DNA of 40,122 bases from the IMG/VR virus record IMGVR_UViG_3300022752_000160, positions 1-40,122 of that record; one strand, given 5' to 3'. The translations under genes were made by a program, and so were the position numbers. The notes beneath the pieces are model-generated. The model worked only from the letters and a program-made list of their open reading frames with translations. It was not told the DNA's origin and made no database searches. Position 1 is the first letter of the stretch. Each line of letters opens with the position of its first letter. Shown here one piece after another: positions 14,811-36,806 of the stretch. The stretch is from a virus.

Positions 14811-15565
14811 TATTGACCGCCTCCCATCTTGCTAAAAAGCCAACTTGTAAAATCAATACGCTTCTTACGCTCTAATGCTTCTGGGTCTGCAGCTTGAAGA
14901 GCCTGTGTGGTTTGGGAAGCAATTTGCTCTTGGGAAAATCCAGGAGTCTGGGTTACCAATGTTTCTTTCTTACCAGTCTTAGGGTTCTTTACGACTGTAC
15001 TTGTGGTAACAATACCCTTGCTAATCATATCGTTGATATTCTTATTAAGGTTTTTATACCAGTCAGCCTGCTTGTCTTCTTCAGTAATGGAGCGTCCAAG
15101 TACATTTACGGCAAGGGCATCAATGTTCTTAGCCACAGTCTCTGGCGCAGTTTGATACACCTGACGTGTAGGAATGTTTTCCTTTGGAGCACCTGTGCTT
15201 ATTCTTAACTTTGCCGCACTGCGTAGTAGGTCTTCAACTGACACTGCTTTGGCATTTGGGTCAGCGGCGTTATTCAGATTTTCTACAGTTCTTGTTATCC
15301 AGGCACCTAGCAAAGCTGGGTCGTTATATGTTTTTCCAGTTGCTTGTTTTACAGCACCACGAATGAGTGAGTATAGTTTTGGATTCTGAGTTACCAATGA
15401 AGTGACATACTTATTAACATCACTTGGTATAAGGTATCTATCTGTTCCAAATCCAAGCTTTACTCCTGCTTTTGAGTCTTTACCTTGCTGACTTGCTCCA
15501 CCCCAATTAACTGTAGGTATAGATGGTTTAGGTGTTGGACTTGCACTCGGTGTGGTGAAACTCAT
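14810..15565 (-). CDS. Internal virion protein (251 aa)
   Basis: The first 35 residues are Pro/Ser/Thr-rich and flexible. They are followed by a helical domain (YLIPSDVNKYVTSLVTQNPK, TRTVENLNNAADPNAKAVSV) and a C-terminal helix that ends in FTSWLFSKMGGGQ. The ATG overlaps the end of the giant 1768-residue gene. No motif gives an activity. I place it with the 322- and 469-residue products as a virion core or ejection set, since it is transcribed between the giant protein and the scaffold. Confidence 0.65.
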   Translation of the reverse strand: MSFTTPSASPTPKPSIPTVNWGGASQQGKDSKAGVKLGFGTDRYLIPSDVNKYVTSLVTQNPKLYSLIRGAVKQATGKTYNDPALLGAWITRTVENLNNAADPNAKAVSVEDLLRSAAKLRISTGAPKENIPTRQVYQTAPETVAKNIDALAVNVLGRSITEEDKQADWYKNLNKNINDMISKGIVTTSTVVKNPKTGKKETLVTQTPGFSQEQIASQTTQALQAADPEALERKKRIDFTSWLFSKMGGGQ

Positions 15566-18500
15566 TTTTTGATTACCTCGAATTTATCATTGTCAAGATA
15601 CCTGTTGTACAGTTCGGCGAATCCATTATCCCAAAGTGACATCCTCAAAACATAGTCATCCCAGGTATTTTTTAGGTCCTCATTGCTTTGATTTGCTAGT
15701 GACTTAGAACCACCCAGTGCCTCACGGCGCTGTAGTTCTTGTACCAAGTAAGTACGATTTACAATGAAGTCGGATACTGCTTGGATTGTAGAAGTATTTC
15801 CGTTCTTCTTCATAAAATCTTTATCTTGTACAATTCGCGTCAAGCCAGCAATGTAACGGTTAGTCTTGTTGATATCGTTGACACCAACTTGACGTTCCTT
15901 GGCCCAGGCTGGGTATCTCCGCTCTAAATCTGTAATAGCGTTTTCCCAGTCTTTGTCGTAGCCCAGTTCCTTCATTACCGGAGAACTAATGTTGGTTACT
16001 TTGTAACCCTGCTTCTGTAGTTCTGCAATCTTGGCATCACGAGATGCAGCAAGTTTGGTGTAGTAAGTCCAGCCAAGACTGATTTCTCTATCCTTGAGTA
16101 CTTCTTCTGGGTCACGGCGCTCGGTATACTTATAGTTACCACCGATGCGGATTTCTTTATCGCGGAAGTAGTTAGCTGCAGCAGCAGAATACTTATCTGC
16201 ATCAATACCATAGTTGACTACAAAGCCAACAAGTCCTGGTACACCACCGCCAATTCTGTCCAAATCTTTAAGCAATGGTTCAAATTGCTTTTGGTTCTTA
16301 ACAGCACTGACTGTTGGGCTAACACCAGTCTTGTTCATATTTGATGATGCTGTAAGGATATAACCCAAGTCACCATACTTGTTAAGAATATAATCGTTTA
16401 CCTTAGCCAATCCAATAGCAGGATTATCCATAGCCTTACGGTAATCCTCAACAATTACCTGCCACTCTGGGCGGAATGTAAAGGTTGCAGGAAGTGCTAA
16501 GTTAGCAGCAATACGGATATCATAAAGTTGCTTTGCAAGACGCATAGCATCGCCAAATGTAGGTTGATTGCCAACTCTTCCACCGGTTTCCCATTGGTAA
16601 TACTGAGTCTTCATAGCGCTGACTACAGCGTTAGCAAAGGCTTCATTGCTTAGACCTTCTTGCTTTGCCTTAATCTTTTGACCAGCAGCAGGAAGTAACA
16701 AGGTCCAAGGATTTGTTACTGGTTGTCCGAATGGCAAGATAGTAGCCATTACGCCATCTGCAAACTCTTTACCAAAGTTTCTTTCAAGCCATTTATTAGC
16801 AGACTCTGTTACCTCTGGGCGTGCATTAGTAAATGCAGCTACAGGAACTGTTACTGGAACACCAAAACTTGGTAGCAACGGGTTCTGTCCCTGCAAGAAT
16901 ACGTTAAGGCTGTTCTTGGGAACGGATATTTGATAACCTTTAGGGATACCAAACTTACCTTGCATACCTTCTGGAATAGTAAACAAAATGAACTGGTCTG
17001 TTGTTGGACCTTTTCCTTCTGGAACTACATCGCCATTCTCATCTACAACAGCAGCGACTCTATTTGGCAGGTTCCAAATCTGTGTGGCACGTGCTAAACG
17101 TGATGGGTCCTGTGCGATAAGACGTCCATATACTTTGATTGCGTTATACTGTGCGTTAAAGAACGGAATAAGGAAGCGCATTGTACTTGCAATACCTGAG
17201 TTATTTGTTACTCGGTAGAGAGTCTCATTGACAACCTTACGTGTGCGAGAGTGAGCTGAGCGCTGCAACTGGAGGATAAGGTCTTCATCCTGAAGATTCT
17301 TGCCTAATCCTTCAGCGATGTTAATCTCTCGTTGCAGATTCTGCTTGTAAAGTTTCTCGTAGAAAGGCCACGCCACTAGGTTGTTTTCTGGTGTAGTACC
17401 AATAACCTTGAATAGGTTTGACAGGCTGTTATTGATGATTCTCTTTGTCAATCCACCACCATAGCCAAGAGTATTTTCCATCATCTCTCGACCTGGTACG
17501 GAAATCAAGTATGGGTTACCACGCATCAAGATATCAAACTGTTCTGGGCTTAATTCTTCCTTGGCAACAAGTGAGCGCATCTGTGTATCAGGAAGAAGCT
17601 TATAGATACGTGAACGTGCCTCTTGGATATGTGGCAAAATTTCATCTGGTTTAATATCAGCATCAATTTCACGTAGATAGAAGCTACCTTCTTTGCTACG
17701 GAGCCAAAGTGAAATGTTATAGTCAGGTTCTCCCTGTAAGATACGCATCGCAAGTTGGTCATTACGTAGTCTTGTGTTGACGAACTGCGCTAACTCATTG
17801 AAGTATTGAGGGTCAGTAGGTGCAACCGCTGCAGGTTTTGTCCCAAGACGTCCTTCAAATAGCGGAGATGTTGCGCCTTTTGCAGCATCAAAGGAAAGAT
17901 ATGTCTGATTCTCTGTGAGCCAGTTGAGTGTCTGGTCGCTGGATGCTTCTCTGCGAACCAAGATACCGCTAGGTCCAGCAAATGCACCGTTAGCAGTAAT
18001 TGCTTGGCCTTTAGGTGTGATATATGTATCTACCTTTTCGCCACTCTTAACAATTTTTAGGTCAGCACGGATAGCAGCCAGTTCTTGTGACTGTGCAATC
18101 TTCTCACTGATTTGTTTATCCAAACCATTGATAGCATCAGTGTAAAGACGAACACGCATCATCTGCTCTTCGCCGATAATCTCTGCAATATCCTCGTAGT
18201 TCTTGGAACGTGATACTTCATAGGAAGTAATAACACGGATATCAGGCTTAGCGCCTGGCTCTTTTGCACGAGGCTTGAACTTCTTACCAGCAGCAACCTG
18301 CATCTCAAGCATTGCAGGTGGAAGACCCTTGCGGGTTTCTGGTTCTGGGAAAGCGCCTTTAGGCAAACGACCCTTGGTGCCAGGAACCTTGTAGAAAACC
18401 TTACCGCTTGGATAGTCAGCGTAAACAAGGGTTGTTCCATTTGGCAGTTTAGGAACTACTTGAGTGCGAACATAGCGACCAAAGGCCTTCTCTTCTAACT

Positions 18501-20868
18501 CTTTGTACTTTGATAGTTCATCTCCGAAGAGAATGCCATTCTGTTCATCTTTGATTTTCTTAAGTTCCAAGAAGCGCTTACGTTGGCTATCGTTGAGTAG
18601 ATTGAATGCGCTATAACGGATACCAAAGTCAACATTCTCTGGGTCAATACGCTTACCAAAGACACCGCTTGCGCCTGCATAGTAGTCACGTGGTGTGATT
18701 TCATCAAGAATTTGGTTTCTTACATCAACATAGTTGTTACGTGAAGCAACTAACTTGCCGGTAAATGTGCGAAGTTGGGCTGGATTGCGTAGGGCAATGG
18801 TGTCACCAACAAAATTAGTAGCCATTTTTGCGCGAGTCTTGAGGTTCTGACCGAATGTCTTGAACATATCGTCAGTCTTAGCCATAGAACCAAGCACCAA
18901 TGCAGCGCGAAGTTGACCGTCAATGGTGTTACGGATTGGGTAACCCATACGTGTAAGTACAGATGCCTTCCAGAATGAGTTAGCAAAGTCTGCAAAGTCA
19001 TTGAACTCGCGTCCTGCTACTACAGTCTTAACGCCTGCATCACCAAAGAGTCGCTTGATACCTAGAATCTTCTCGAAATCCTTGAAGTCCATCATAGGAA
19101 CAACGTTGGGCATTTCTGATTTCCAGAATGGGGATGTTACCAGCTTGCCACTATCGTCTACCCAGAAACCTTTATCACGGAATGATGCAACAATAGCGTT
19201 GCGGACAGAGGTAAATTGAGAATAAATCTCATCAGCTTCCTGTGGTGTAAAACCTTTTTCTGCAGCAATGAGGTTCTTGGCCTCTTCTTCGATATTTGTA
19301 ACAGCGGCAGCTCTTTCACTTGCGTTGCGTGCTGTCAAATACTCACGTGCCAGTTCATTCTTGACTGGGATGTACTCAGCGCTACGTAGTGTCTTGACAG
19401 AATTAAGGGCATACTTGATTTCATTGAATGAATCTGCTGTACCCAAACCGTCAACCTTGACAAGTCCACGTGGCAACTTATTGAATGCTGCTTGAATCAC
19501 TGTAACAGGACGTGTATATGGACTCTTTTGGAATGTTTCAGTGTAGAAAGTAAAGTTATTATAGGCATCTGCTGCTGCAGCTCTAGCCTTTTCAATAGCA
19601 ACACCGATGTTTTTATTAAATAGTTGAACATCTGCGGCAGATGTATAGTCAGTGATGACACGATAGTCACCAATACCTTCTGACATTGCACGAGCAAGGG
19701 CAGCATCTCGACGTTGTAAGTCTGTTAGAACATTAGTAAGTTTATTCCACTCATCAACGGTGGGCATAAACTGTTCAATCTTAGTCGCTTGTCCCCAAGG
19801 AATGTTATTTAACTTGGTTTCCATTGGGTCAAGAATGTCTTTCATACGAGTAATCTCGTCAGCAATAGATGCCTTAGTTTGTTGAAGTTTCAACAATGAG
19901 TTGTTATCTCCGGCAGCGGCTGCAAAGAAGTTAGCCATATCATCGTAATTATCCAACTCACTAGCAACGCCTGCTACGAATGTAGGGTTGTTAGAGTTTC
20001 TAACTAGCCAACTATCATAAACACGAGTACCACTTTTACCCACAAGGTCTTGTACTGCAGTTCCCATAGGAGTTTCGCGTCCTACTTGACCGCCAGATTT
20101 TACCCACATACCGTGAGTATCAAGCTCGGAACGTACACGAGCAACATCATCTGCAGATTGAATTGGACGCTCTAGTCCTTTAAGACGAGCTACCTTGGCT
20201 CCCTTGCCAATAATGACAAGTGGGTCTGCGTACCAGTTAAGCAAACCATCGAGAGAACCAGTCCATAGTCTTCCAAAAATGTCATCTTCAAAAGCCTTCT
20301 TGCGCTGGTCTGGGTCTGCAATGTTAAAGTTTGGGTCTAAGAATGTAGGAAGTGGTGCGCCTTGTTCTTGAAGAAATGGTGTTACACCTAAGCGCTCTCC
20401 AAATGCACCAACAACTCCTGCTGCTGCTTGTCCTGGCGATACTTGTCTAGCAAGATTCCAGTTCTTAAGAAGGTTAAGTCCTTCACCAGATACTGCATCT
20501 GCTTCAGCAAGCAGTGCTGTAGAAATTGGTTGTGATACTTTTGGATAAGCCCACTTGTAAAAATCAGTAGCTTCTTGAATTACCTTATCAACAACATTAG
20601 CAATTCCAACAGTTTCTGCAGGCTTTGCAACAGCACCAGCAAAAGCTGTCCCAGCTTTCTTAGCTAAAGCATCAATAGTCTCTTGACGTTGTGCGTCAAT
20701 AGTTGCAACTGGCTTTGCTAAAGCTGGCACTTGAGGTTGAGCTTGGGCTACTCTGGCTTGCGTAACGCCAGCGCCAAGACCAAAGGCTGCTTTAGGGATA
20801 GCAGATACAGCGGTGCCAATAGCACCACCTAATCCACGCTTAATCATATCCCAATAGGATTCAGCCAT
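15562..20868 (-). CDS. Giant virion protein, probable DNA-ejection/internal core protein (1768 aa)
   Basis: At 1768 residues this is by far the largest gene. The N-terminus has a Gly/Ala-rich, weakly hydrophobic stretch (KRGLGGAIGTAVSAIPKAAF), then long helical arrays rich in Lys, Glu and Ala. Recognisable spots are WKASVLTRMGYPIRNTIDGQ in the middle and MRFLIPFFNAQYNAIKVYGR about two thirds along. I saw no glycosidase or polymerase motif, and looked without success for the vRNAP signatures of N4. Its length and site between portal and capsid fit proteins that are ejected with DNA in short-tailed phages. A tape measure is an alternative, though no tail-tube gene accompanies it. Confidence 0.7.
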   Translation of the reverse strand: MAESYWDMIKRGLGGAIGTAVSAIPKAAFGLGAGVTQARVAQAQPQVPALAKPVATIDAQRQETIDALAKKAGTAFAGAVAKPAETVGIANVVDKVIQEATDFYKWAYPKVSQPISTALLAEADAVSGEGLNLLKNWNLARQVSPGQAAAGVVGAFGERLGVTPFLQEQGAPLPTFLDPNFNIADPDQRKKAFEDDIFGRLWTGSLDGLLNWYADPLVIIGKGAKVARLKGLERPIQSADDVARVRSELDTHGMWVKSGGQVGRETPMGTAVQDLVGKSGTRVYDSWLVRNSNNPTFVAGVASELDNYDDMANFFAAAAGDNNSLLKLQQTKASIADEITRMKDILDPMETKLNNIPWGQATKIEQFMPTVDEWNKLTNVLTDLQRRDAALARAMSEGIGDYRVITDYTSAADVQLFNKNIGVAIEKARAAAADAYNNFTFYTETFQKSPYTRPVTVIQAAFNKLPRGLVKVDGLGTADSFNEIKYALNSVKTLRSAEYIPVKNELAREYLTARNASERAAAVTNIEEEAKNLIAAEKGFTPQEADEIYSQFTSVRNAIVASFRDKGFWVDDSGKLVTSPFWKSEMPNVVPMMDFKDFEKILGIKRLFGDAGVKTVVAGREFNDFADFANSFWKASVLTRMGYPIRNTIDGQLRAALVLGSMAKTDDMFKTFGQNLKTRAKMATNFVGDTIALRNPAQLRTFTGKLVASRNNYVDVRNQILDEITPRDYYAGASGVFGKRIDPENVDFGIRYSAFNLLNDSQRKRFLELKKIKDEQNGILFGDELSKYKELEEKAFGRYVRTQVVPKLPNGTTLVYADYPSGKVFYKVPGTKGRLPKGAFPEPETRKGLPPAMLEMQVAAGKKFKPRAKEPGAKPDIRVITSYEVSRSKNYEDIAEIIGEEQMMRVRLYTDAINGLDKQISEKIAQSQELAAIRADLKIVKSGEKVDTYITPKGQAITANGAFAGPSGILVRREASSDQTLNWLTENQTYLSFDAAKGATSPLFEGRLGTKPAAVAPTDPQYFNELAQFVNTRLRNDQLAMRILQGEPDYNISLWLRSKEGSFYLREIDADIKPDEILPHIQEARSRIYKLLPDTQMRSLVAKEELSPEQFDILMRGNPYLISVPGREMMENTLGYGGGLTKRIINNSLSNLFKVIGTTPENNLVAWPFYEKLYKQNLQREINIAEGLGKNLQDEDLILQLQRSAHSRTRKVVNETLYRVTNNSGIASTMRFLIPFFNAQYNAIKVYGRLIAQDPSRLARATQIWNLPNRVAAVVDENGDVVPEGKGPTTDQFILFTIPEGMQGKFGIPKGYQISVPKNSLNVFLQGQNPLLPSFGVPVTVPVAAFTNARPEVTESANKWLERNFGKEFADGVMATILPFGQPVTNPWTLLLPAAGQKIKAKQEGLSNEAFANAVVSAMKTQYYQWETGGRVGNQPTFGDAMRLAKQLYDIRIAANLALPATFTFRPEWQVIVEDYRKAMDNPAIGLAKVNDYILNKYGDLGYILTASSNMNKTGVSPTVSAVKNQKQFEPLLKDLDRIGGGVPGLVGFVVNYGIDADKYSAAAANYFRDKEIRIGGNYKYTERRDPEEVLKDREISLGWTYYTKLAASRDAKIAELQKQGYKVTNISSPVMKELGYDKDWENAITDLERRYPAWAKERQVGVNDINKTNRYIAGLTRIVQDKDFMKKNGNTSTIQAVSDFIVNRTYLVQELQRREALGGSKSLANQSNEDLKNTWDDYVLRMSLWDNGFAELYNRYLDNDKFEVIKK

Positions 20869-21830: not shown

Positions 21831-23588
21831 TTAGCCTGCGATTTGGGCAAGTAGACTTGCGATGTCGGGACGAGGGCCAGCAGCAGGGGCCGCACCAGTC
21901 ATCATTTCTGGAGTTGGCTGCGAGGCAGGGGCTGGGGCCATACCTGCCGCTGGAACTTCTGCGCCCATACCTGGCATACCTGGCATCTGTGGTGCTGGTT
22001 GCTCTGGGGCGAATACTTCTTCAACTATCGTTTCGATTGCCTTGCCCTTTTGTCGGCCTTTAATAACTTCAGCAATCCGGCTAACAATTTGTGAAGGGTC
22101 TTGACCTTGCGCTGCAAGTGTGGGAATAGCTTGTGCATACTGAGCGACAGCAACACGAAGAGAATCACGCATCTCTTCAATGTCCACTCTTTGTTCTTCT
22201 TGGGTGACATTGAGCTCCATAGGAATTTCGCGGCGTACATAATCACGTGATACAAGTTTGTCGCTACGCATCTGTAGCAATGCAATGATTGCACGGTTAG
22301 GGTCCATACCGGACATAATTCCGTAACGGACATCTACGCCGTACTCACCAGCAATAGCCTTGTTAGGTACATACTTCATTGAGAATGGTGTGCCATCTTC
22401 AGCGCCACGAATTTCCTTGGTCATATTGCCAAAGATTTTCTCGTCTACCTCAAAGCACATTGATACAAGTTCTGTGAAGAGGCGTGCGAACTGTGCTTGT
22501 GCTGAGCGAATTTGTGTATCAAATCCAGCTTGAAGTGCTTGAACTCCGCGACCTGTAACAACAGATGCGTCGAGGTTACCGCTGCGTACTTCTGGGTAGC
22601 GAGCGCCCATACGAAGTTCGCGCTCAAGAACACCAGATTCTGCAAAGACTCCAGGTGGAAGTTCTAGCGGCACACGACGGATTGCTTGCGGATTAGCGCT
22701 TCGCATAATTGAGTCAGGGCCAAGTGCGAGTTCTTGGACATCCTGCGGAATAGCAATCGGTGCTTGGATAGATTTTTCTGCTGCTTGAATCTGCAAGACA
22801 GCGAAACGTGCACGTGCTAGTTGTACCGCTAGAACATCATCAAATTGTCCGCGTGCTTCGCCATCAATAGATGAACGAACTGCGACTGCTGCAAGACACT
22901 TGCCAACTGGGTTGGGTGTCTGGGAAAGAACGAGGTTGTTGCGTTCTGGTAGGAAAATCAAATCTTGTTCTGCATCGTGATAGCGAATCAACGAAATGTA
23001 TGGAGTTGTAGATACTCCGCTATATGGGCTCTGCTTCTTGCCAAGAATCTCAGAGTAGAACTCTGGGTATTGAGCCGCTAGGGATTCAGAGTCAGTTGAG
23101 ATAACTTGAGTTAGTGAGATGGTTCTACCAAATCTATCAATCTCAGGATAGACGCCAAATGGGTTTAGCATACGGATGCGAGGATTGTTATTCTCATAAT
23201 CCATTTCAACGATGGCTGGCAACATACCGTAGGTGTTGAACCAGTCAGCACCGGTGTACATCTGAATCTGTAAATCCGAGGATGCCACGTAATAGTTGGC
23301 GATACGAGTTCTAGTATCTGCAGCCTTGCGTGCTGCATCGGAAACCATATTGGTAGCAGAGCACTCAAAGGATGGTAGTGGTGCCATCGCTTCTGCTAAG
23401 TCACGAGCAGCGACGTCAATGAAGTTCGCAACTAGAGGCTTTGGGTATTCCTCTGTGAACATAGCAGGATAGACCTTGGAGATATCTCCTTGGCGTACTG
23501 ACAAGACGCTACGCATACGCTGGTCGCGTGGTGCGTACTTGGTCTGTAGTCGCGCTACTTTAGATACGACTTCTTTGACGGATAACAA
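21831..23588 (-). CDS. Portal protein
   Basis: A 585-residue portal, the dodecameric ring at the vertex through which DNA is packed and released. The N-terminal part holds MRSVLSVRQGDISKVYPAMF. The wing/stem part includes ADWFNTYGMLPAIVEMDYEN and MLNPFGVYPEIDRFGRTISL. The tunnel region around SVVTGRGVQALQAGFDTQIR fits other portals. A Pro/Ala/Met-rich tail of about 55 residues closes it. The TTG start at 23588 is chosen because GGAGAG lies just ahead. It follows the terminase gene at 9 bases, the expected order. Confidence 0.88.
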   Translation of the reverse strand: MLSVKEVVSKVARLQTKYAPRDQRMRSVLSVRQGDISKVYPAMFTEEYPKPLVANFIDVAARDLAEAMAPLPSFECSATNMVSDAARKAADTRTRIANYYVASSDLQIQMYTGADWFNTYGMLPAIVEMDYENNNPRIRMLNPFGVYPEIDRFGRTISLTQVISTDSESLAAQYPEFYSEILGKKQSPYSGVSTTPYISLIRYHDAEQDLIFLPERNNLVLSQTPNPVGKCLAAVAVRSSIDGEARGQFDDVLAVQLARARFAVLQIQAAEKSIQAPIAIPQDVQELALGPDSIMRSANPQAIRRVPLELPPGVFAESGVLERELRMGARYPEVRSGNLDASVVTGRGVQALQAGFDTQIRSAQAQFARLFTELVSMCFEVDEKIFGNMTKEIRGAEDGTPFSMKYVPNKAIAGEYGVDVRYGIMSGMDPNRAIIALLQMRSDKLVSRDYVRREIPMELNVTQEEQRVDIEEMRDSLRVAVAQYAQAIPTLAAQGQDPSQIVSRIAEVIKGRQKGKAIETIVEEVFAPEQPAPQMPGMPGMGAEVPAAGMAPAPASQPTPEMMTGAAPAAGPRPDIASLLAQIAG

Positions 23589-30295: not shown

Positions 30296-30684
30296 GCTTC
30301 CTCCATAGGAAGAAGTTTAGTCGCTTCGATTAGGTCAATTACTTTTACGAGATATCCCCGTGATAAATTGGGAGGTATCTCGCAGGTAATATCTCTGCCA
30401 AAGGTTTTGACTGCGTGCCAGAGAACGGTGGTGGGTAGCATAATCACAGTCTTCTTGAGGACGAATGCCCAGTATTCAGCTTCGGTTACTGCCAGTCCAG
30501 AGGGAGCCCACGCATTATCCTTAGTAAAGAAGCACTCAACCTCAATATAAACGTTGCCAGTAAGATGCCACTTTCTATCTCGCTTGACTTCGATACGCTT
30601 GCCTTCAGTGAGAAGCTCTTCGACTAACTGCTCTCCCTTCCTGCCATAGGAGAAGTCTAAGTCGAAGGAAGATTTATTAGTCAT
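30292..30684 (-). CDS. Small PD-(D/E)XK nuclease-like protein (130 aa)
   Basis: A 130-residue protein with FDLDFSYGRKGEQLVEELL, then GKRIEVKRDRKW with the E-x-K pair, and GNVYIEVECFF. Conserved AWAPSGLAVTEAEYWAFVL follows. This order (acidic residue, E-x-K, second acidic strand) fits the PD-(D/E)XK nuclease fold, and I recognise similar small proteins in actinophage replication regions. Substrate and activity are unknown. The start is overlapped by the stop of the sigma-like gene. It may process recombination or packaging intermediates. Confidence 0.65.
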   Translation of the reverse strand: MTNKSSFDLDFSYGRKGEQLVEELLTEGKRIEVKRDRKWHLTGNVYIEVECFFTKDNAWAPSGLAVTEAEYWAFVLKKTVIMLPTTVLWHAVKTFGRDITCEIPPNLSRGYLVKVIDLIEATKLLPMEEA

Positions 30685-31316
30685 TAGTTATAGGGACTCT
30701 CTCCGCCGAGCATATTTTGTAGTTTGCGTAGTGCGTTAGCACAGCGTCTATCGGCAGTAGAAGTAGCGCAACCTAGGTACTGACCCATCTCCTCTAGTGT
30801 GAGGTTCTCGTGGTATCTCTTGATGAGAATGTCTTTATCTACAACATCTAACTTGAGGTATGCCTTCTTGATATCAATGAGGATAGCTAGCAGGTTGCCA
30901 CCTTCAGCAGGAGCAGACTGCTTGCGTGGTTGTCCATCGTTGATGAGGTTCTGTGCTGCTTCCAATACTGTGTTATCTATAACTGATGCGATGACGTGAG
31001 GAAGGAGCTGACCTAGTACCACGCTGTCATAAAAAGACTCATCGCCTATCTTGTAGCCGCTCTTGTTAGCCTTCTCCTTACGAGCGTAGCGTTCACAATG
31101 GCGACGCATCTGCCACGCCATACGCTTCTCATTGATGACTCGCTGGACTGAGTTCTCTTCTGATAAGAGTTGGTTGAAGTGTTCAGCTCTGGAGAAGTAC
31201 CAGGTATAGCACTCCTGTCTGACATCATCACGCTCAACGAATTGTCGATAGCGTCGGTAGATAGAGTTAGTAACGCTAGATACGATGTCAGGTACAGAAG
31301 GATGAAGCTCAGTCAT
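30684..31316 (-). CDS. Sigma-factor-like protein (210 aa)
   Basis: A 210-residue protein with an N-terminal helical part (SIYRRYRQFVERDDVRQECY) matching sigma region 2, and a C-terminal helix-turn-helix. The latter is about residues 155-200, with LDVVDKDILIKRYHENLTLE and EMGQYLGCATSTADRRCANA, a region-4 pattern. It should direct RNA polymerase to phage promoters or regulate it. The region 2.4 part looks reduced, so it may work as an anti-sigma-like or accessory factor instead. It lies near the end of the early operon, so it is suited to switching on late genes. Confidence 0.75.
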   Translation of the reverse strand: MTELHPSVPDIVSSVTNSIYRRYRQFVERDDVRQECYTWYFSRAEHFNQLLSEENSVQRVINEKRMAWQMRRHCERYARKEKANKSGYKIGDESFYDSVVLGQLLPHVIASVIDNTVLEAAQNLINDGQPRKQSAPAEGGNLLAILIDIKKAYLKLDVVDKDILIKRYHENLTLEEMGQYLGCATSTADRRCANALRKLQNMLGGESPYN

Positions 31317-31725
31317 TGGGTAGTTCAGGCCACTTGTTCTCTAGTACGAGGATTGCAATAGCAGAATAGTTCAATAAATCTACGAAGGAATCTCGGAGGG
31401 ACTCGTTGCTTGGTGCAACTCGTGAATCAACGAGATGATTAATCCTGGCAATTTTATCGTGCATTCGCACCCTAAGTCCGTTGAGTGCTCCACCTGGACT
31501 GTGAGCGATATTCTTCGGCCCGTAATCTTTGTGTTTACGGATGAGGAGATTGCCTGCTCCGTCGAGGACTCGCCAGACATCGGCGATGAACTCATCATTT
31601 ACTTTCGCACCGGCATTGGCTGGCAGGTTATCGTCCCAGCCTTGTAATCTATCGAGACTATTATCATCCCCATATCCGTCAATAATCTGGCTGCCTCTAG
31701 TAAATCCTTTTTCTTGCTCACTCAC
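31309..31725 (-). CDS. DUF1599-like nucleotide-metabolism protein (138 aa)
   Basis: A 138-residue protein with LIRKHKDYGPKNIAHSPGGA, LRVRMHDKIARINHLVDSRV and NESLRDSFVDLLNYSAIAIL. This order (K-DYG, GL-R--DK--R, E---D---DL-NY) is that of the DUF1599 / 'nucleotide modification associated domain 1' proteins, relatives of the MazG-like all-alpha pyrophosphohydrolases. It may sanitise or adjust the nucleotide pool during replication, inferred from family associations. The gene overlaps the primase gene before it and the sigma-like gene after it. Confidence 0.75.
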   Translation of the reverse strand: MSEQEKGFTRGSQIIDGYGDDNSLDRLQGWDDNLPANAGAKVNDEFIADVWRVLDGAGNLLIRKHKDYGPKNIAHSPGGALNGLRVRMHDKIARINHLVDSRVAPSNESLRDSFVDLLNYSAIAILVLENKWPELPND

Positions 31726-32381
31726 TTAACTCCTCCTACTAGGTTGGTTGTAGCTTCTATACCGTTAGCCAGATAGAAATCCGTTATGTCCATACCTGGT
31801 GGTAATTGTACTATTTGTCCATTTGTAATTTCGCTTGCGACACGCCGAGAGAACTCAGCTCCTGGGTTGGTTCCATCTTCCTTGATGTCGTTATCACCGA
31901 TGACATAGACAGTATCGAACCCTGAAAAAAGCTTATGATAGAAGGGTTTCCACGCAGCCACACCAGGTACACCAACAGCAGGTACACCACAGTTTGCTTC
32001 CATTACTATCGCATCGAACTCACCTTCGCAGATAACGATAGATGATGTTGGACTCATCGTGGCAGAGACGTTGAATAGGTGCGCCTTCTGTCCCACCGGT
32101 GAACCATACTTAGGCTTGCCATCATCAAGTCTTCTAAACTTAAAGCCAACACAGATATCTAAAGCTGTAAAGTATGGAATAGATATCCATCCTTCATACA
32201 TCTGATGTCCCTCGATAGGATTAGTGATGGTACCTAAGCGATAGCGAGCAGCAGTCTCCTCAGATATTCCACGTCCTGCGAGGTAGGCCAGCGCCTCGTC
32301 GCTTATTGACTGTGCGTAATGGTGAGCCGCTTCCTGCTGCAATTTCGCTTGCCCTTGCGAGAGCATCCTTGAACCCCACAT
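31722..32381 (-). CDS. DnaG-type primase, TOPRIM catalytic part
   Basis: A 219-residue protein. Its N-terminus has EALAYLAGRGISEETAARYR, the typical DnaG linker, and its centre holds the TOPRIM motifs. SIVICEGEFDAIVM carries the catalytic Glu and VYVIGDNDIKEDG the D-x-D. It lays RNA primers with the zinc-binding part encoded just upstream. Its frame starts inside the zinc-domain gene, 1 base ahead in phase, and the two parts continue each other like one DnaG. So either two coupled genes, a programmed +1 shift, or a sequence error splits them. Starts at 32381 (ATG) or 32366 (ATG) are possible. Confidence 0.82.
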   Translation of the reverse strand: MWGSRMLSQGQAKLQQEAAHHYAQSISDEALAYLAGRGISEETAARYRLGTITNPIEGHQMYEGWISIPYFTALDICVGFKFRRLDDGKPKYGSPVGQKAHLFNVSATMSPTSSIVICEGEFDAIVMEANCGVPAVGVPGVAAWKPFYHKLFSGFDTVYVIGDNDIKEDGTNPGAEFSRRVASEITNGQIVQLPPGMDITDFYLANGIEATTNLVGGVK

Positions 32382-32735: not shown

Positions 32736-32850
32736 CTGGCTCTTGCTCCTCTTCCTTCTGTTCTACTTCAGTTGGTTCTTCTGGAATTACTACCTCTGGT
32801 GCATTCCAAATATCACTCGTTGTTATCTGTCCTTCTGGTACTGGCATCAT
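32722..32850 (-). CDS. Tiny acidic protein (42 aa)
   Basis: A 42-residue acidic peptide (ITTSDIWNAPEVVIPEEPTE, then a Glu/Gln-rich end). AGGAGT precedes the ATG pair at 32850. It overlaps the resolvase-like gene upstream and the zinc-ribbon gene downstream. Probably disordered; it may be a protein inhibitor or linker. Its reality rests on the ribosome site and the overlaps. Confidence 0.5.
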   Translation of the reverse strand: MMPVPEGQITTSDIWNAPEVVIPEEPTEVEQKEEEQEPDDLQ

Positions 32851-33214
32851 CTACTCCTAACTCTTGAGCTATGTTATTAACCCACTCTGATAGTGGCTGT
32901 ATTACCCACGCATCTGCGATGCTGGCGTTTCTACGTTTGACTATAACGAAGGCCGGAGGAGTCGCAACCATCCCCCGTGCCTTCGCATAGTTGGCTGCCT
33001 CAGTCTGAGCTTCTGCCCAGAACTGCGGAAGATTGATTGACTTACGATTCTTGCACTCCAGAATATAGGTCTGACCTGCGATTATGGTGACGATATCACC
33101 TTCGTCGTTGGAGCCGGCTTTAGCGAGGCGCTCGGCGAAGTGTCCTAGTTTACGCAGATACTTCATCACATCTGTCTCAAACTTGGAACCCTTAGCCTTG
33201 TTGTAACTGCTCAC
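32813..33214 (-). CDS. Holliday-junction-resolvase-like nuclease (133 aa)
   Basis: A 133-residue protein with NKAKGSKFETDVMKYLRKLG, then RLAKAGSNDEGDIVTI and GQTYILECKNRKS. The Glu in the first helix, the GD and the E-C-K make a complete PD-(D/E)XK site of the archaeal-Hjc-like type common in actinophages. It should cut branched DNA from recombination or packaging. The GTG start at 33214 overlaps the helicase stop (GTGA). It is placed in the replication operon, as expected. Confidence 0.78.
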   Translation of the reverse strand: MSSYNKAKGSKFETDVMKYLRKLGHFAERLAKAGSNDEGDIVTIIAGQTYILECKNRKSINLPQFWAEAQTEAANYAKARGMVATPPAFVIVKRRNASIADAWVIQPLSEWVNNIAQELGVDDASTRRTDNNE

Positions 33215-34038
33215 AACATACTCGCATTCACTAGTACCGGTCTACCGTACTGGTCAACATCTCGTATCTCACAGGTAGCAAAGTTCACTGATAACCCAGT
33301 GTTGTCTTTGCCATCTGCTGAGTGCTTACCGAATCGATTCTTAACTGCTGCAACCTTGAGTTCATTTGAGAACGGGTTGTAGCCAAGAGTAAGGATAGTT
33401 GCAGGTAACTGACTTACCTTTCCGTGGATACTTCTCCTCGGTGGTGGTTCAGTTGGTGAGCCATACTCACTCTGCTCTGAGACGTGGTGCAATACCAACA
33501 CACAAGCTTCTGTCTTACGTGCCATATCGTGGAACTCCATCATTATCTGACGCAGTCCTGCCCATTCATTCTCAGATTCAGCAACGACATTCATTAAATT
33601 GTCTACGACAATCAGCTCTGGAGCGATGCCATAGAGTTCAACGTAAGCCTTTATCTCATCTTCGATATCATCAAGATTCGGTGATGAATCAAAGGCCCAT
33701 TGAATATGCGATATCTTGTCGATATAGCCATCGTAGAAACGTGGGTTGTGGTTTATCTGATTCTCAACTGTCTGCTGGCTATGTCCGGAGACGTGCGCTA
33801 TAGCACGTAGCCACACTGTAGCCACATCAGTATCAGCAGAGAAGAACAGTGTTGGTACCTTAGCTTGTATTGCATAGACCAAGGCGAACATAGACTTACC
33901 AGCATTAGGTGCAGCAGCGACCATACATACCTGTCCTCTGCGGAACTTAATCTCTTTAGATTCAAGTGCTTTCCAGACAGTGGGCAGTGGCTTTGCGGCA
34001 GTGCCAACATTCCTCCAAGCCCTGTCTAACCTAAGCAC
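33211..34038 (-). CDS. DnaB/RepA-like RecA-fold ATPase (helicase)
   Basis: A 275-residue ATPase. Walker A is VAAAPNAGKSMFALVYA (about residue 40), Walker B is ELIVVDNLMNVVAE, and a sensor-like VLVLHHVSEQSE follows. The RecA-type core resembles replicative helicases of the DnaB/RepA type in small form, without the N-terminal DnaB domain. It may unwind DNA for the primase encoded downstream. The GTG start at 34038 has GGGAGGAAA before it. It overlaps the WhiB gene by 8 bases. Confidence 0.8.
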   Translation of the reverse strand: MLRLDRAWRNVGTAAKPLPTVWKALESKEIKFRRGQVCMVAAAPNAGKSMFALVYAIQAKVPTLFFSADTDVATVWLRAIAHVSGHSQQTVENQINHNPRFYDGYIDKISHIQWAFDSSPNLDDIEDEIKAYVELYGIAPELIVVDNLMNVVAESENEWAGLRQIMMEFHDMARKTEACVLVLHHVSEQSEYGSPTEPPPRRSIHGKVSQLPATILTLGYNPFSNELKVAAVKNRFGKHSADGKDNTGLSVNFATCEIRDVDQYGRPVLVNASML

Positions 34039-34291
34039 TTTCCTCCCGTCGTACTTGTATGTTCCTCTGTCTTCTTATCTGCTTACGTTGGAACTCCGAT
34101 AAGCCGCCCCAGATTCCGTGACGCTCATTGTGGATTCCCCATTCTGCACACTCAACTTGATGGACACACGAGTTACATATACTTCGAGCGTAAATGGTTT
34201 CTGGTGTAGCGCCAAGTCCTGGTTCAGGGAACCAGAAGTCACCGCCTGATTGAGAGCAGAGAGGATTCTCGTATTCACGAGGCTCTCGCAT
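34031..34291 (-). CDS. whiB: WhiB-family transcription factor
   Basis: From the ATG at 34291 it has 86 residues. Four Cys at 12, 39, 42 and 48 form C-x26-C-x2-C-x5-C, the ligand set for a [4Fe-4S] cluster. GIWGG at 59-63 follows, and then a basic end (RKQIRRQRNIQVRR) that contacts DNA. WhiB proteins bind sigma region 4 of actinobacterial RNA polymerase and alter promoter choice; phage members such as mycobacteriophage TM4 WhiB can down-regulate host whiB2. It is the main marker of an actinobacterial host. The frame is open to 34348 but that part lies in the upstream gene. Nitric oxide or oxygen sensing through the cluster is possible. Confidence 0.92.
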   Translation of the reverse strand: MREPREYENPLCSQSGGDFWFPEPGLGATPETIYARSICNSCVHQVECAEWGIHNERHGIWGGLSEFQRKQIRRQRNIQVRREESA

Positions 34292-34295
34292 TGGG

Positions 34296-34658
34296 TCATC
34301 GGACCCAGATGGTTGGGCACTTGTCTGTTGCACCCTTAGGTGCTGCACACATATAGCCCTTCCAAGGGCCTTTAGCGCCTACTCCTTCACGATATGACAT
34401 TGTTCCGTGCTTACAAGCATTAGCTCCGGTTTGTGCTGGAACTGGAGCTGCTACAGGTGCAGGCTGATTACTTTGAACTGGCGCAGCAGGTCGAGCGCCG
34501 TGAAACGAATCGCTGGTTGAGATGATGAGCGCAGATACCATCTGCAAATCAGTCAAGCCAGTCTCCAGTTCCTTAACATCCTTTGCATAAAGATTTACTA
34601 GGGTTCCATCTGGCAACTTGTAGTTGACTTGGAACATCGTTGATTCTGGTGCAGCCAT
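34296..34658 (-). CDS. Conserved actinophage-type protein with zinc-ribbon end (120 aa)
   Basis: A 120-residue protein. The N-terminal domain (MFQVNYKLPDGTLVNLYAKD, then LETGLTDLQMVSALIIST) is followed by a Pro/Ala linker. The end has ACKHGTMSYREGVGAKGPWK and GYMCAAPKGATDKCPTIWVR with a Cys-His-Cys-Cys set. It resembles small actinophage proteins encoded near exonuclease genes; the linker plus acidic/zinc design hints at a single-strand-DNA or protein interaction role, but I cannot show it. It starts right after the exonuclease gene and ends 4 bases before whiB. Confidence 0.7.
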   Translation of the reverse strand: MAAPESTMFQVNYKLPDGTLVNLYAKDVKELETGLTDLQMVSALIISTSDSFHGARPAAPVQSNQPAPVAAPVPAQTGANACKHGTMSYREGVGAKGPWKGYMCAAPKGATDKCPTIWVR

Positions 34659-35612
34659 TTACTTACCTCCGGTTTGTTTAACGGAAAGCCTTGCGCTTTC
34701 CTTGCCTTGCTTTGTTGGAAGATAACCCAGCACTTTCTCCACTGCTTCTTTATCCACCGTATTACTCTGAGTAGTGGTCCACTTGACTTCTATCCCAGTG
34801 TTAGTAACTCCAGTTATACCAAGCAAGTTCTCACGTAACTCGCTCTTCTTTGCCTCTAAATCTTTTATCTGTTCATCAATCTGTAGATAGTGCAGCGCTG
34901 TGTTGCCAGCTTCTGCATCTTCTATCACCGGTAATTCAGTTTTGGTACGTTCTTTTTTTAGACCAACGCATCCCATCTCACCAGAGGCGTCATAGTATTT
35001 GCAATAAAACTTACAATAGCTCTCGTCCCTTTCAGGAGCAGGAGCCGAGTCCGATGTCTTAATTGCTTCTAACCAGTTGAGCGCCTCTAGTGCGACAGCC
35101 TCGTCATATGGTTCGGAGTGAACAAGAATATCTCGCTCATCTCCGTCACGAGGTATGGCTACAAGGTTGACGTTCTGGACCTTCCCCAAGCCAGACTTGT
35201 CAATCAAGTAACCATAGACCTGTACTTGCCAGCGTTGTTGCTGCGATGGAAAGTAGGAAAGATTCTTAGCCTTTACTGTTTTCCAATCAACAACGTCACC
35301 TGTCCCAGGGATAAAACAATCAACGTGTGCTTTCATACCATTGTACTCAACAGTCTGTTCTAGCAACACATCTTTGTTCTCAGCAAGACTTGATTCTATT
35401 GCAGTGTGTATGGCAGTACCCATAATCGCTGCGAGCTTGAGCTCGTTATCATTGGTTTCTGGTTGGTTGTTTAACCTATACCAGACCTTACGACGGCAGC
35501 CACCCAACTCTGATGGACCTATCTGAACTTGCGTGGACCGACCACGCTTATTCTCTTTCTCGTGAAGAGCTTTAATAAGTAGTTCTTTTATGTCCATTGG
35601 GGAGCCTGCCAT
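34659..35612 (-). CDS. Cas4/RecB-like exonuclease
   Basis: A 317-residue nuclease. It shows IGPSELGGCRRKVWYRLNNQ with the first Cys, GTAIHTAIESSL, MKAHVDCFIPGTGDVVDWKT with the catalytic D and D-x-K, and QVQVYGYLI with the Q-x3-Y motif. CKFYCKYYDASGEMGC supplies three more Cys that, with the first, would bind an iron-sulfur cluster. This is the Cas4/AddB-like PD-(D/E)XK exonuclease layout. A coiled tail (QIKDLEAKKSELRENLLG) ends it. There is no CRISPR array or cas gene nearby, so recombination or host DNA breakdown is likelier. The ATG at 35612 or 35597 could be used. Confidence 0.85.
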   Translation of the reverse strand: MAGSPMDIKELLIKALHEKENKRGRSTQVQIGPSELGGCRRKVWYRLNNQPETNDNELKLAAIMGTAIHTAIESSLAENKDVLLEQTVEYNGMKAHVDCFIPGTGDVVDWKTVKAKNLSYFPSQQQRWQVQVYGYLIDKSGLGKVQNVNLVAIPRDGDERDILVHSEPYDEAVALEALNWLEAIKTSDSAPAPERDESYCKFYCKYYDASGEMGCVGLKKERTKTELPVIEDAEAGNTALHYLQIDEQIKDLEAKKSELRENLLGITGVTNTGIEVKWTTTQSNTVDKEAVEKVLGYLPTKQGKESARLSVKQTGGK

Positions 35613-35776
35613 CTCGTAATCGTAATGTTAAAAAATAAAAAGTTCAACTGTAAAATTGAAGCATCGTGCTGACCATCAGGCCAAGCAAAGAGTTGATAGT
35701 AATCAAAACCTAAAGCAAAGTTAGTTAGATAATGGCGGTTTAGATGAACGCTATATCTACCAATATCTTTTCTCAT
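35588..35776 (-). CDS. Small aromatic-rich protein (62 aa)
   Basis: A 62-residue product from the ATG at 35776, overlapping the Ntn-hydrolase stop (TGATG). It has GRYSVHLNRHYLTNFALGFD, then YYQLFAWPDGQHDASILQLN and FLFFNITITRWQ. It is rich in aromatics and His, with a strand-helix-strand pattern. It runs 25 bases into the exonuclease gene. I recall similar small phage proteins, without a function. Confidence 0.6.
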   Translation of the reverse strand: MRKDIGRYSVHLNRHYLTNFALGFDYYQLFAWPDGQHDASILQLNFLFFNITITRWQAPQWT

Positions 35777-36339
35777 CAATACTCCCGTCTCTGAATAACT
35801 AATTGAATCGGAGGATGTGTATTAATGTCAAGCATTGACGATATCTGAACGGCTTTCTCGGCGTGTTGCTCTGGCTTTAGATGAAGTGCAGCAGTAGCCA
35901 GACCGCTGAGATAACCAAGAGCGAAAGCACCACCCGACCCCAGACCGTAGATTCCATTCCTACTTTGGATGAACGAGAGGTCCGTCGCAATGTGGAAGAG
36001 GTTGCCATTAAACGAAACAAGGTAGTCGAACCCTGCGTCTTTCTCTTTGACTGCTTCATATGGTTCATATCCATTCTCTTTGAATGCCGTGAGTATGGAT
36101 GGCATAACTTTCTTACCCATCCACTGCACAGGGTCTGCGCCTTTATATGTTGGCGGGCTCCAGTTGTATGCAAGGATGTCACCAGGACGTGAATCACCAG
36201 TGATACCTAGCAGGTACTTACCTACTAAAATTATTTTCGGAGTCGTAAGACTCACGGTCCTTAAGTTGTCTTCGGTTATCTGACTATCTGCAGCTAATAC
36301 GCAACAGTCCTCTAACTCAATTCCAACTAATGTAGTCAC
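35776..36339 (-). CDS. Proteasome/HslV-like Ntn hydrolase
   Basis: A 187-residue protein from GTG 36339. After removal of Met it starts TTLVGIELEDCCVLAADSQI, as mature proteasome beta subunits and HslV do, with Thr1 as nucleophile. Asp falls at position 17, as in the family. A Lys follows at 34 (TTPKIILV), close to the canonical Lys33, and LLGITGD provides the Gly47 region. GIYGLGSGGAFALGYL gives the Ser/Gly-Gly site. All catalytic positions seem present, so an active protease or amidohydrolase is expected. It is the first gene of the early operon. Substrate is unknown, and no ATPase partner is encoded next to it. Confidence 0.82.
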   Translation of the reverse strand: MTTLVGIELEDCCVLAADSQITEDNLRTVSLTTPKIILVGKYLLGITGDSRPGDILAYNWSPPTYKGADPVQWMGKKVMPSILTAFKENGYEPYEAVKEKDAGFDYLVSFNGNLFHIATDLSFIQSRNGIYGLGSGGAFALGYLSGLATAALHLKPEQHAEKAVQISSMLDINTHPPIQLVIQRREY

Positions 36340-36482
36340 GGGAGAAGGTTACCCTTCATCGGCGTGTCGTCGCGGTAGCGACACACCAGTTCATTATACT
36401 ACGAGCCGTAGGCGAGTTACGGTACGGAGGCGGCGCTGAAAGCGCCGAGGCGACCGACCACAGGAGGGAGCCGTCCTGAGCA
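36340..36482. promoter_or_regulatory. Divergent control region with hairpins and a -10 element
   Basis: This gap separates the minus-strand Ntn-hydrolase operon from a plus-strand zinc-ribbon gene. On the minus strand TATAAT is present (complement of 36392-36397), a candidate -10 about 55 bases ahead of the hydrolase start, though no good -35 is seen. Hairpins occur at 36364-36384 (GTGTCG/CGACAC) and 36431-36447 (CGGCGCT/AGCGCCG). The latter is followed by CGAGGCGACC, a sequence also found at 25598-25607. Confidence 0.45.
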
Positions 36483-36770: not shown

Positions 36771-36806
36771 AAAAAAAGAACCCCACCGTTTCCGGTGGGG
36801 CCTTTC
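36771..36806. terminator. Bidirectional intrinsic terminator
   Basis: An 8-bp stem CCCCACCG/CGGTGGGG (36781-36788 and 36793-36800) with a TTTC loop. On the minus strand it is followed by TTCTTTTTTTG, a full terminator for the lysis and tail genes. On the plus strand CCTTTCC follows, weaker, for the zinc-ribbon gene. It lies 28 bases past the holin stop. Confidence 0.88.

Follow-up and report, generated by a model that had tools for sequence, protein, structure and literature searches.

Proteasome homologues were described in phages by Fuchs, Alva and Lupas in 2021 under the names PPH, AAH and CPH (PMC8665760); these authors reported no genomic context hinting at the function of the phage homologues and found AAH in no Actinobacteria phage. 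PPH, a group I homologue, is about 140 aa long and lacks helix H2, and AAH also belongs to group I (PMC8665760). BPH (beta-proteobacterial proteasome homologue, 5OVS), for which no unfoldase is known (PMC8665760), and HslV possess the same catalytic set and compact group I fold as the protein studied here and are its best matches in structure and profile comparisons, whereas the sequence identity is about 20% and no HslU accompanies our protein. The protein is encoded by a lake phage, recorded in IMG/VR as IMGVR_UViG_3300022752_000160, and we designate the whole stretch of 40122 bases as the window. In this study, we propose with moderate confidence that it is an unfoldase-independent threonine peptidase (group I, HslV/BPH-type) that carries out an obligatory, probably early proteolytic step.

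The gene (35776..36339, minus strand) starts with GTG and encodes a proteasome/HslV-like N-terminal-threonine hydrolase of 187 aa. It is a real gene under purifying selection, with a median dN/dS of about 0.15 among close relatives, and its product is, by similarity, a group I (HslV/BPH-like) proteasome homologue. The N-terminus reads Met-Thr-Thr, with a Thr directly after the Met, and in mature numbering Thr1, Asp17, Lys34 (which aligns with Lys33), Gly47 and a G-S-G-G at 133-136 are all there. Removal of Met by Met aminopeptidase would expose Thr1, and no propeptide is predicted. In a broad, diverse alignment of 47 homologues, the nucleophile was Thr or Ser in every row (46 Thr, and Ser in one phage), and Asp17, the Lys and both Gly of GxG were each present in 47/47. 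The Ntn hydrolase with Thr1, Asp17, Lys34 and GSGG that an earlier note had read from this DNA was thus borne out. As a single sequence, the protein scored 20.2 bits against PF00227 (Pfam Proteasome), under the gathering cut-off of 22.4; the homology to the PF00227 superfamily that we claim is based on the predicted fold and on the residues, not on membership at the Pfam threshold. PHROG 1040 ("peptidase HslV family") was matched with an E value of 4e-20, and both the window protein and its phage relatives match this family, for which we know of no tested function, over most of their length. A profile built from 42 viral relatives matched BPH (9e-12) and also HslV in the PDB, and a broader profile matched HslV (6e-17). 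The structure prediction that the same note had called for yielded an AlphaFold2 model (pLDDT 90, pTM 0.86) with a proteasome fold and helices H1 (50-59) and H2 (70-88), and a Foldseek search with this model placed BPH 5OVS on top (TM 0.74, E 1e-11), followed by HslV and then by proteasome beta.

The genomic surroundings of the gene, all on the minus strand, were examined in the window and in relatives. An intrinsic terminator (36779..36802) lies between the lysis genes and the protease operon; a stretch of about 440 bases with no obvious gene runs from it to a palindrome and a TANNNT box, with the lysis-position genes located farther upstream. The palindrome, GTGTCG..CGACAC(GCCG) (36360..36384), is the sole copy in the window, was contained in 0 of 100 shuffles, and in most relatives occurs once, just upstream of the protease gene; we regard it as a candidate operator or 5' hairpin. 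A second -10-like element, TATAAT (36393..36398), is found upstream of the palindrome in the window sequence and in the relatives' upstream regions. The -10-like TANNNT box itself (TAACCT, 36346..36351) ends 6 nt ahead of the GTG, in the manner of a leaderless start. Given that TANNNT ends 6-9 nt ahead of ATG or GTG in 45 of 46 distinct upstream regions (5% by chance) and that Shine-Dalgarno-like motifs are rare (6/46), the mRNA of the protease gene is probably leaderless.

The protease gene is followed by orf63 (35588..35779), which encodes a conserved 63-aa protein, overlaps the protease stop codon with its start and had no family match in Pfam and PHROG profile searches. Then come genes for a Cas4/RecB-like PD-(D/E)XK exonuclease (34659..35612), an L5 gp49-like protein (34296..34658), a WhiB-like regulator, which is a marker of actinobacterial hosts (34031..34348), a DnaB-like helicase (33211..34038), a RusA-like resolvase (32813..33214), a DNA primase (Toprim; 31722..32381) and a phage sigma factor (30684..31316). 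The order protease, orf63, exonuclease, gp49-like, WhiB, helicase and RusA is kept in the relatives' contigs with flanks. The upstream terminator, the TANNNT box and this conserved order support the protease as the opening gene of a conserved DNA-replication operon that is preceded by a terminator, a palindrome present in one copy and a leaderless promoter, in agreement with the earlier note, which had placed it first in the operon, and the gene order suggests early timing. The companion remark that no ATPase partner is next to it was likewise correct, since none of the genes in the window was recognised as coding for an unfoldase.

Some relatives depart from this arrangement. In a sub-clade (L006-L008, L010, L021, L025, L026), the protease starts with ATT or ATC after the Shine-Dalgarno-like GGAAAGGA, not with a leaderless ATG or GTG. 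An HNH endonuclease-like ORF directly precedes the protease gene in one contig (L074:1940-2370), leaving an ATA start, and another directly follows it in L044:6040-6540, while L053 has a similarly sized gap. By eye, the small ORFs that immediately precede homologues in other phages and plasmids looked unrelated to one another, and no common partner was found among them. As for orf63, a partner or an inhibitor of the protease is conceivable.

A total of 414 stretches of viral contigs code for a relative of the protease. The window also matches LanE43-AprE7 and AprF5, isolated phages of 'Ca. Planktophila' (OX376640/1, filed in GenBank as Caudovirales sp. ct2KA10), in the terminase (45%) and helicase (39%) and in lysis and sigma genes. 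Most genes of E7 are collinear with those of the window, and the two have lysis, helicase, primase and sigma genes in common. The HslV-like homologue of E7 (OX376640.1:7500-8036, L431) is 33% identical to the window protein but lies behind the portal-position gene, whereas that of the window stands at the head of the replication operon. The window homologue of the E7 portal-position protein (51% identical; 21831..23588, minus strand) follows the terminase and on that ground probably deserves the label portal. Across the E7 clade, 76 of 80 loci have the start of the HslV-like gene 20-97 nt downstream of the portal-position gene; this copy lies in the late region, which counts against an early role of the protease. 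Near the portal-position gene, the window also encodes a 1768-aa protein (15562-20868) whose sole match is an unknown PHROG, and a 1764-aa ORF occupies the matching place in E7.

The E7 arrangement raises the possibility that the enzyme matures the virion as a prohead or scaffold protease, its gene having been relocated in the window lineage from a place after the portal gene to the start of the replication operon. Prohead proteases are classically encoded behind the portal gene, and the window ORFs that were scanned included none that was recognised as one. However, in contigs with flanks, the gene of the window lineage is far from the head genes, has its own promoter and precedes the exonuclease, WhiB and helicase genes; moreover, the folds of known prohead proteases differ from the proteasome fold. 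We consider a maturation protease unlikely, albeit the strongest of the competing explanations.

In sibling phages, the place of the protease gene is taken by a different gene, coding for a 110-aa protein with an HExxH motif, in which H53, E54, H57, E74 and E75 are invariant. It showed sub-threshold similarity to DUF6782 and Peptidase_M78 and weak matches to PHROGs annotated as "peptidase" and "metallo-protease". Its AlphaFold2 model reached a pLDDT of 88; the fold search gave only weak matches (best E 0.086), which included SprT-type proteins and, near the top, zinc metallopeptidases, e.g., abylysin, IrrE/PprI and Wss1. From the HExxH motif with its invariant flanks and from these sub-threshold and weak matches, we predict that the protein is a zinc metallopeptidase. 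The GACACGC arm of the palindrome and the leaderless TANNNT precede this gene too, in 13 of 20 distinct cases, and a metallopeptidase scan returned 44 contigs, nearly all with the gene in the same slot. No match to it was found in the E7 genome.

The distribution of the two genes was determined from exonuclease- and dnaB helicase-seeded scans of viral contigs, in which loci were not picked by the protease. At least 700 bases preceded the exonuclease in 128 loci, of which 125 carried the HslV-like gene, 3 the metallopeptidase gene and 0 neither; after identical exonuclease sequences were removed, the figures were 95 and 3 of 98 distinct relatives, again with 0 neither. Over all loci, some of which represent the same contig more than once and all of which come from one phage lineage, 196 had the Ntn gene, 47 had the metallopeptidase gene and 0 had both, an exclusivity that partly reflects descent. 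Among whole records, 12 metallopeptidase genomes were without an Ntn protein, and 10 Ntn genomes, including the window, were without the metallopeptidase. If the slot needs a peptidase, one would expect unrelated folds to replace each other under a single promoter as they do here, an argument that could fail if either protein is not a protease.

This exchange bears on a further explanation, namely that the protein is a non-peptidase Ntn enzyme, e.g., a connectase-like ligase or a small-molecule amidohydrolase. The superfamily does include such an enzyme, as connectase is a ligase (PMC8665760), and a separate amidohydrolase had been among the options of the earlier note. This role becomes less likely because a predicted metallopeptidase takes the same promoter slot; in addition, the nearest folds are the peptidases BPH and HslV, and the window model has helices H1 and H2, both of which connectase lacks. 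We regard a non-peptidase function as quite improbable.

The E7/F5 relatives and the WhiB gene suggest that the host of the window phage is 'Ca. Nanopelagicales'-like. No PF00227 protein was found in seven Nanopelagicales-type genomes, including that of LanE-43, the host of E7 and F5, and proteasome, HslV and Anbu are accordingly absent from these seven. In the whole order, 147 of 151 genomes had no PF00227 protein; the remaining 4 had two adjacent PF00227 genes, the arrangement expected of PrcB/PrcA, and the recovery of such pairs indicates that the search works. Six of the host genomes had no Pup and neither Mpa/ARC nor HslU at scores over the cut-off, whereas two proteasome-bearing genomes of the order had Mpa/ARC at 813-815 bits and Pup. 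HslU over the cut-off was found in none of 8 host-order genomes.

These results leave little room for rings that rely on ClpX, ClpC, FtsH or another AAA+ unfoldase of the host. The hosts do encode AAA+ ATPases with partial matches to the HslU and pup_AAA models, the pattern expected of ClpX- and FtsH-like proteins, but neither the tested hosts nor the window has a cognate HslU or Mpa, and BPH likewise has no known unfoldase (PMC8665760); we judge such reliance very unlikely. That the protease takes the place of 20S proteasome or HslV subunits of the host, or poisons them, as the earlier note had suggested for the proteasome and as its distant homology to them might allow, was rejected as scarcely credible because the likely hosts mostly lack a proteasome, with none in the seven host-type genomes and PrcA/PrcB in just 4 of 151 genomes of the order.

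The unfoldase-independent threonine peptidase that we favour would act as follows. Removal of Met would expose Thr1 and render the enzyme active, and the predicted peptidase would work without a dedicated unfoldase, given that HslU, Mpa/ARC and Pup are encoded neither by the phage nor by the likely host. It would be made early and would cleave or degrade one or a few specific proteins of the host or the phage, and in sibling phages the metallopeptidase may take over this task. Defence proteins, which the earlier note had named as possible substrates, may be among them. Our confidence in the early role is only moderate because the E7 clade has the gene behind the portal-position gene. In a wider and more tentative proposal, these freshwater actinophages, whose hosts are without a proteasome, may have an obligatory "protease slot" that is filled either by a threonine enzyme of the proteasome type or by a zinc metallopeptidase unrelated to it, is usually first behind the same leaderless promoter and is directed at a target shared by hosts or virions. 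If this is true, the slot proteins serve one proteolytic step, for which two unrelated enzymes are interchangeable. The isolated relatives E7 and F5 on LanE-43 make the question testable.

Comparison with the known proteasome-type families sets the window protein apart from HslV, the 20S beta subunit, PPH and Anbu. HslV identity was rejected on the NCBIfam equivalog score (26.6 against a cut-off of 157.75 bits) and on the lack of a recognised HslU in the window. A 20S proteasome beta subunit was likewise rejected: the archaeal beta model gave 20.4 against 224 bits, the Thr comes right after the Met, and there is no alpha partner, with no second PF00227 protein in the window's record. The length of 187 aa and the presence of H2 at 70-88 are incompatible with PPH, although PPH is, like the window protein, phage-borne. 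The AlphaFold2 model stops after the strand at 179-184, without the C-terminal coiled-coil helix H5, and is therefore not that of an Anbu. AAH shares with the window protein its group and its occurrence in phages, and AAH-like proteins sit on rhizobial, Streptomyces and Bacillus plasmids; in our tree, the AAH-like plasmid rows formed a separate cluster (93/80), and the window and E7 clades were sisters (93/92), with deep branches uncertain.

Outside phages, a search of GTDB contigs by conserved peptide patterns found no close bacterial relatives, and PADLOC returned no match for the window protein. Most profile matches in Actinobacteria were N-terminal pieces of ORFs of 270-340 aa, which is what PrcB would give; the rest were one HslV and a distant 231-aa family. 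The latter (L213, L229) is a proteasome-like actinobacterial family that has Thr1 and Asp17 and fails the NCBIfam 20S beta cut-offs.

Phage HslV-like proteins as such are already known (PHROG 1040; Fuchs 2021). Set against PHROG 1040, the leaderless first-gene place and the metallopeptidase swap are features of the window's phage lineage; what is new is the operon-opening position, the hosts without a proteasome, the exchange with a metallopeptidase in the slot and the E7-clade place behind the portal gene. Phage proteasome homologues, known since 2021 without a functional genomic context, are now offered one by a large and abundant lineage, in the form of a fixed promoter slot, an exclusive swap with a predicted peptidase and proteasome-free hosts.
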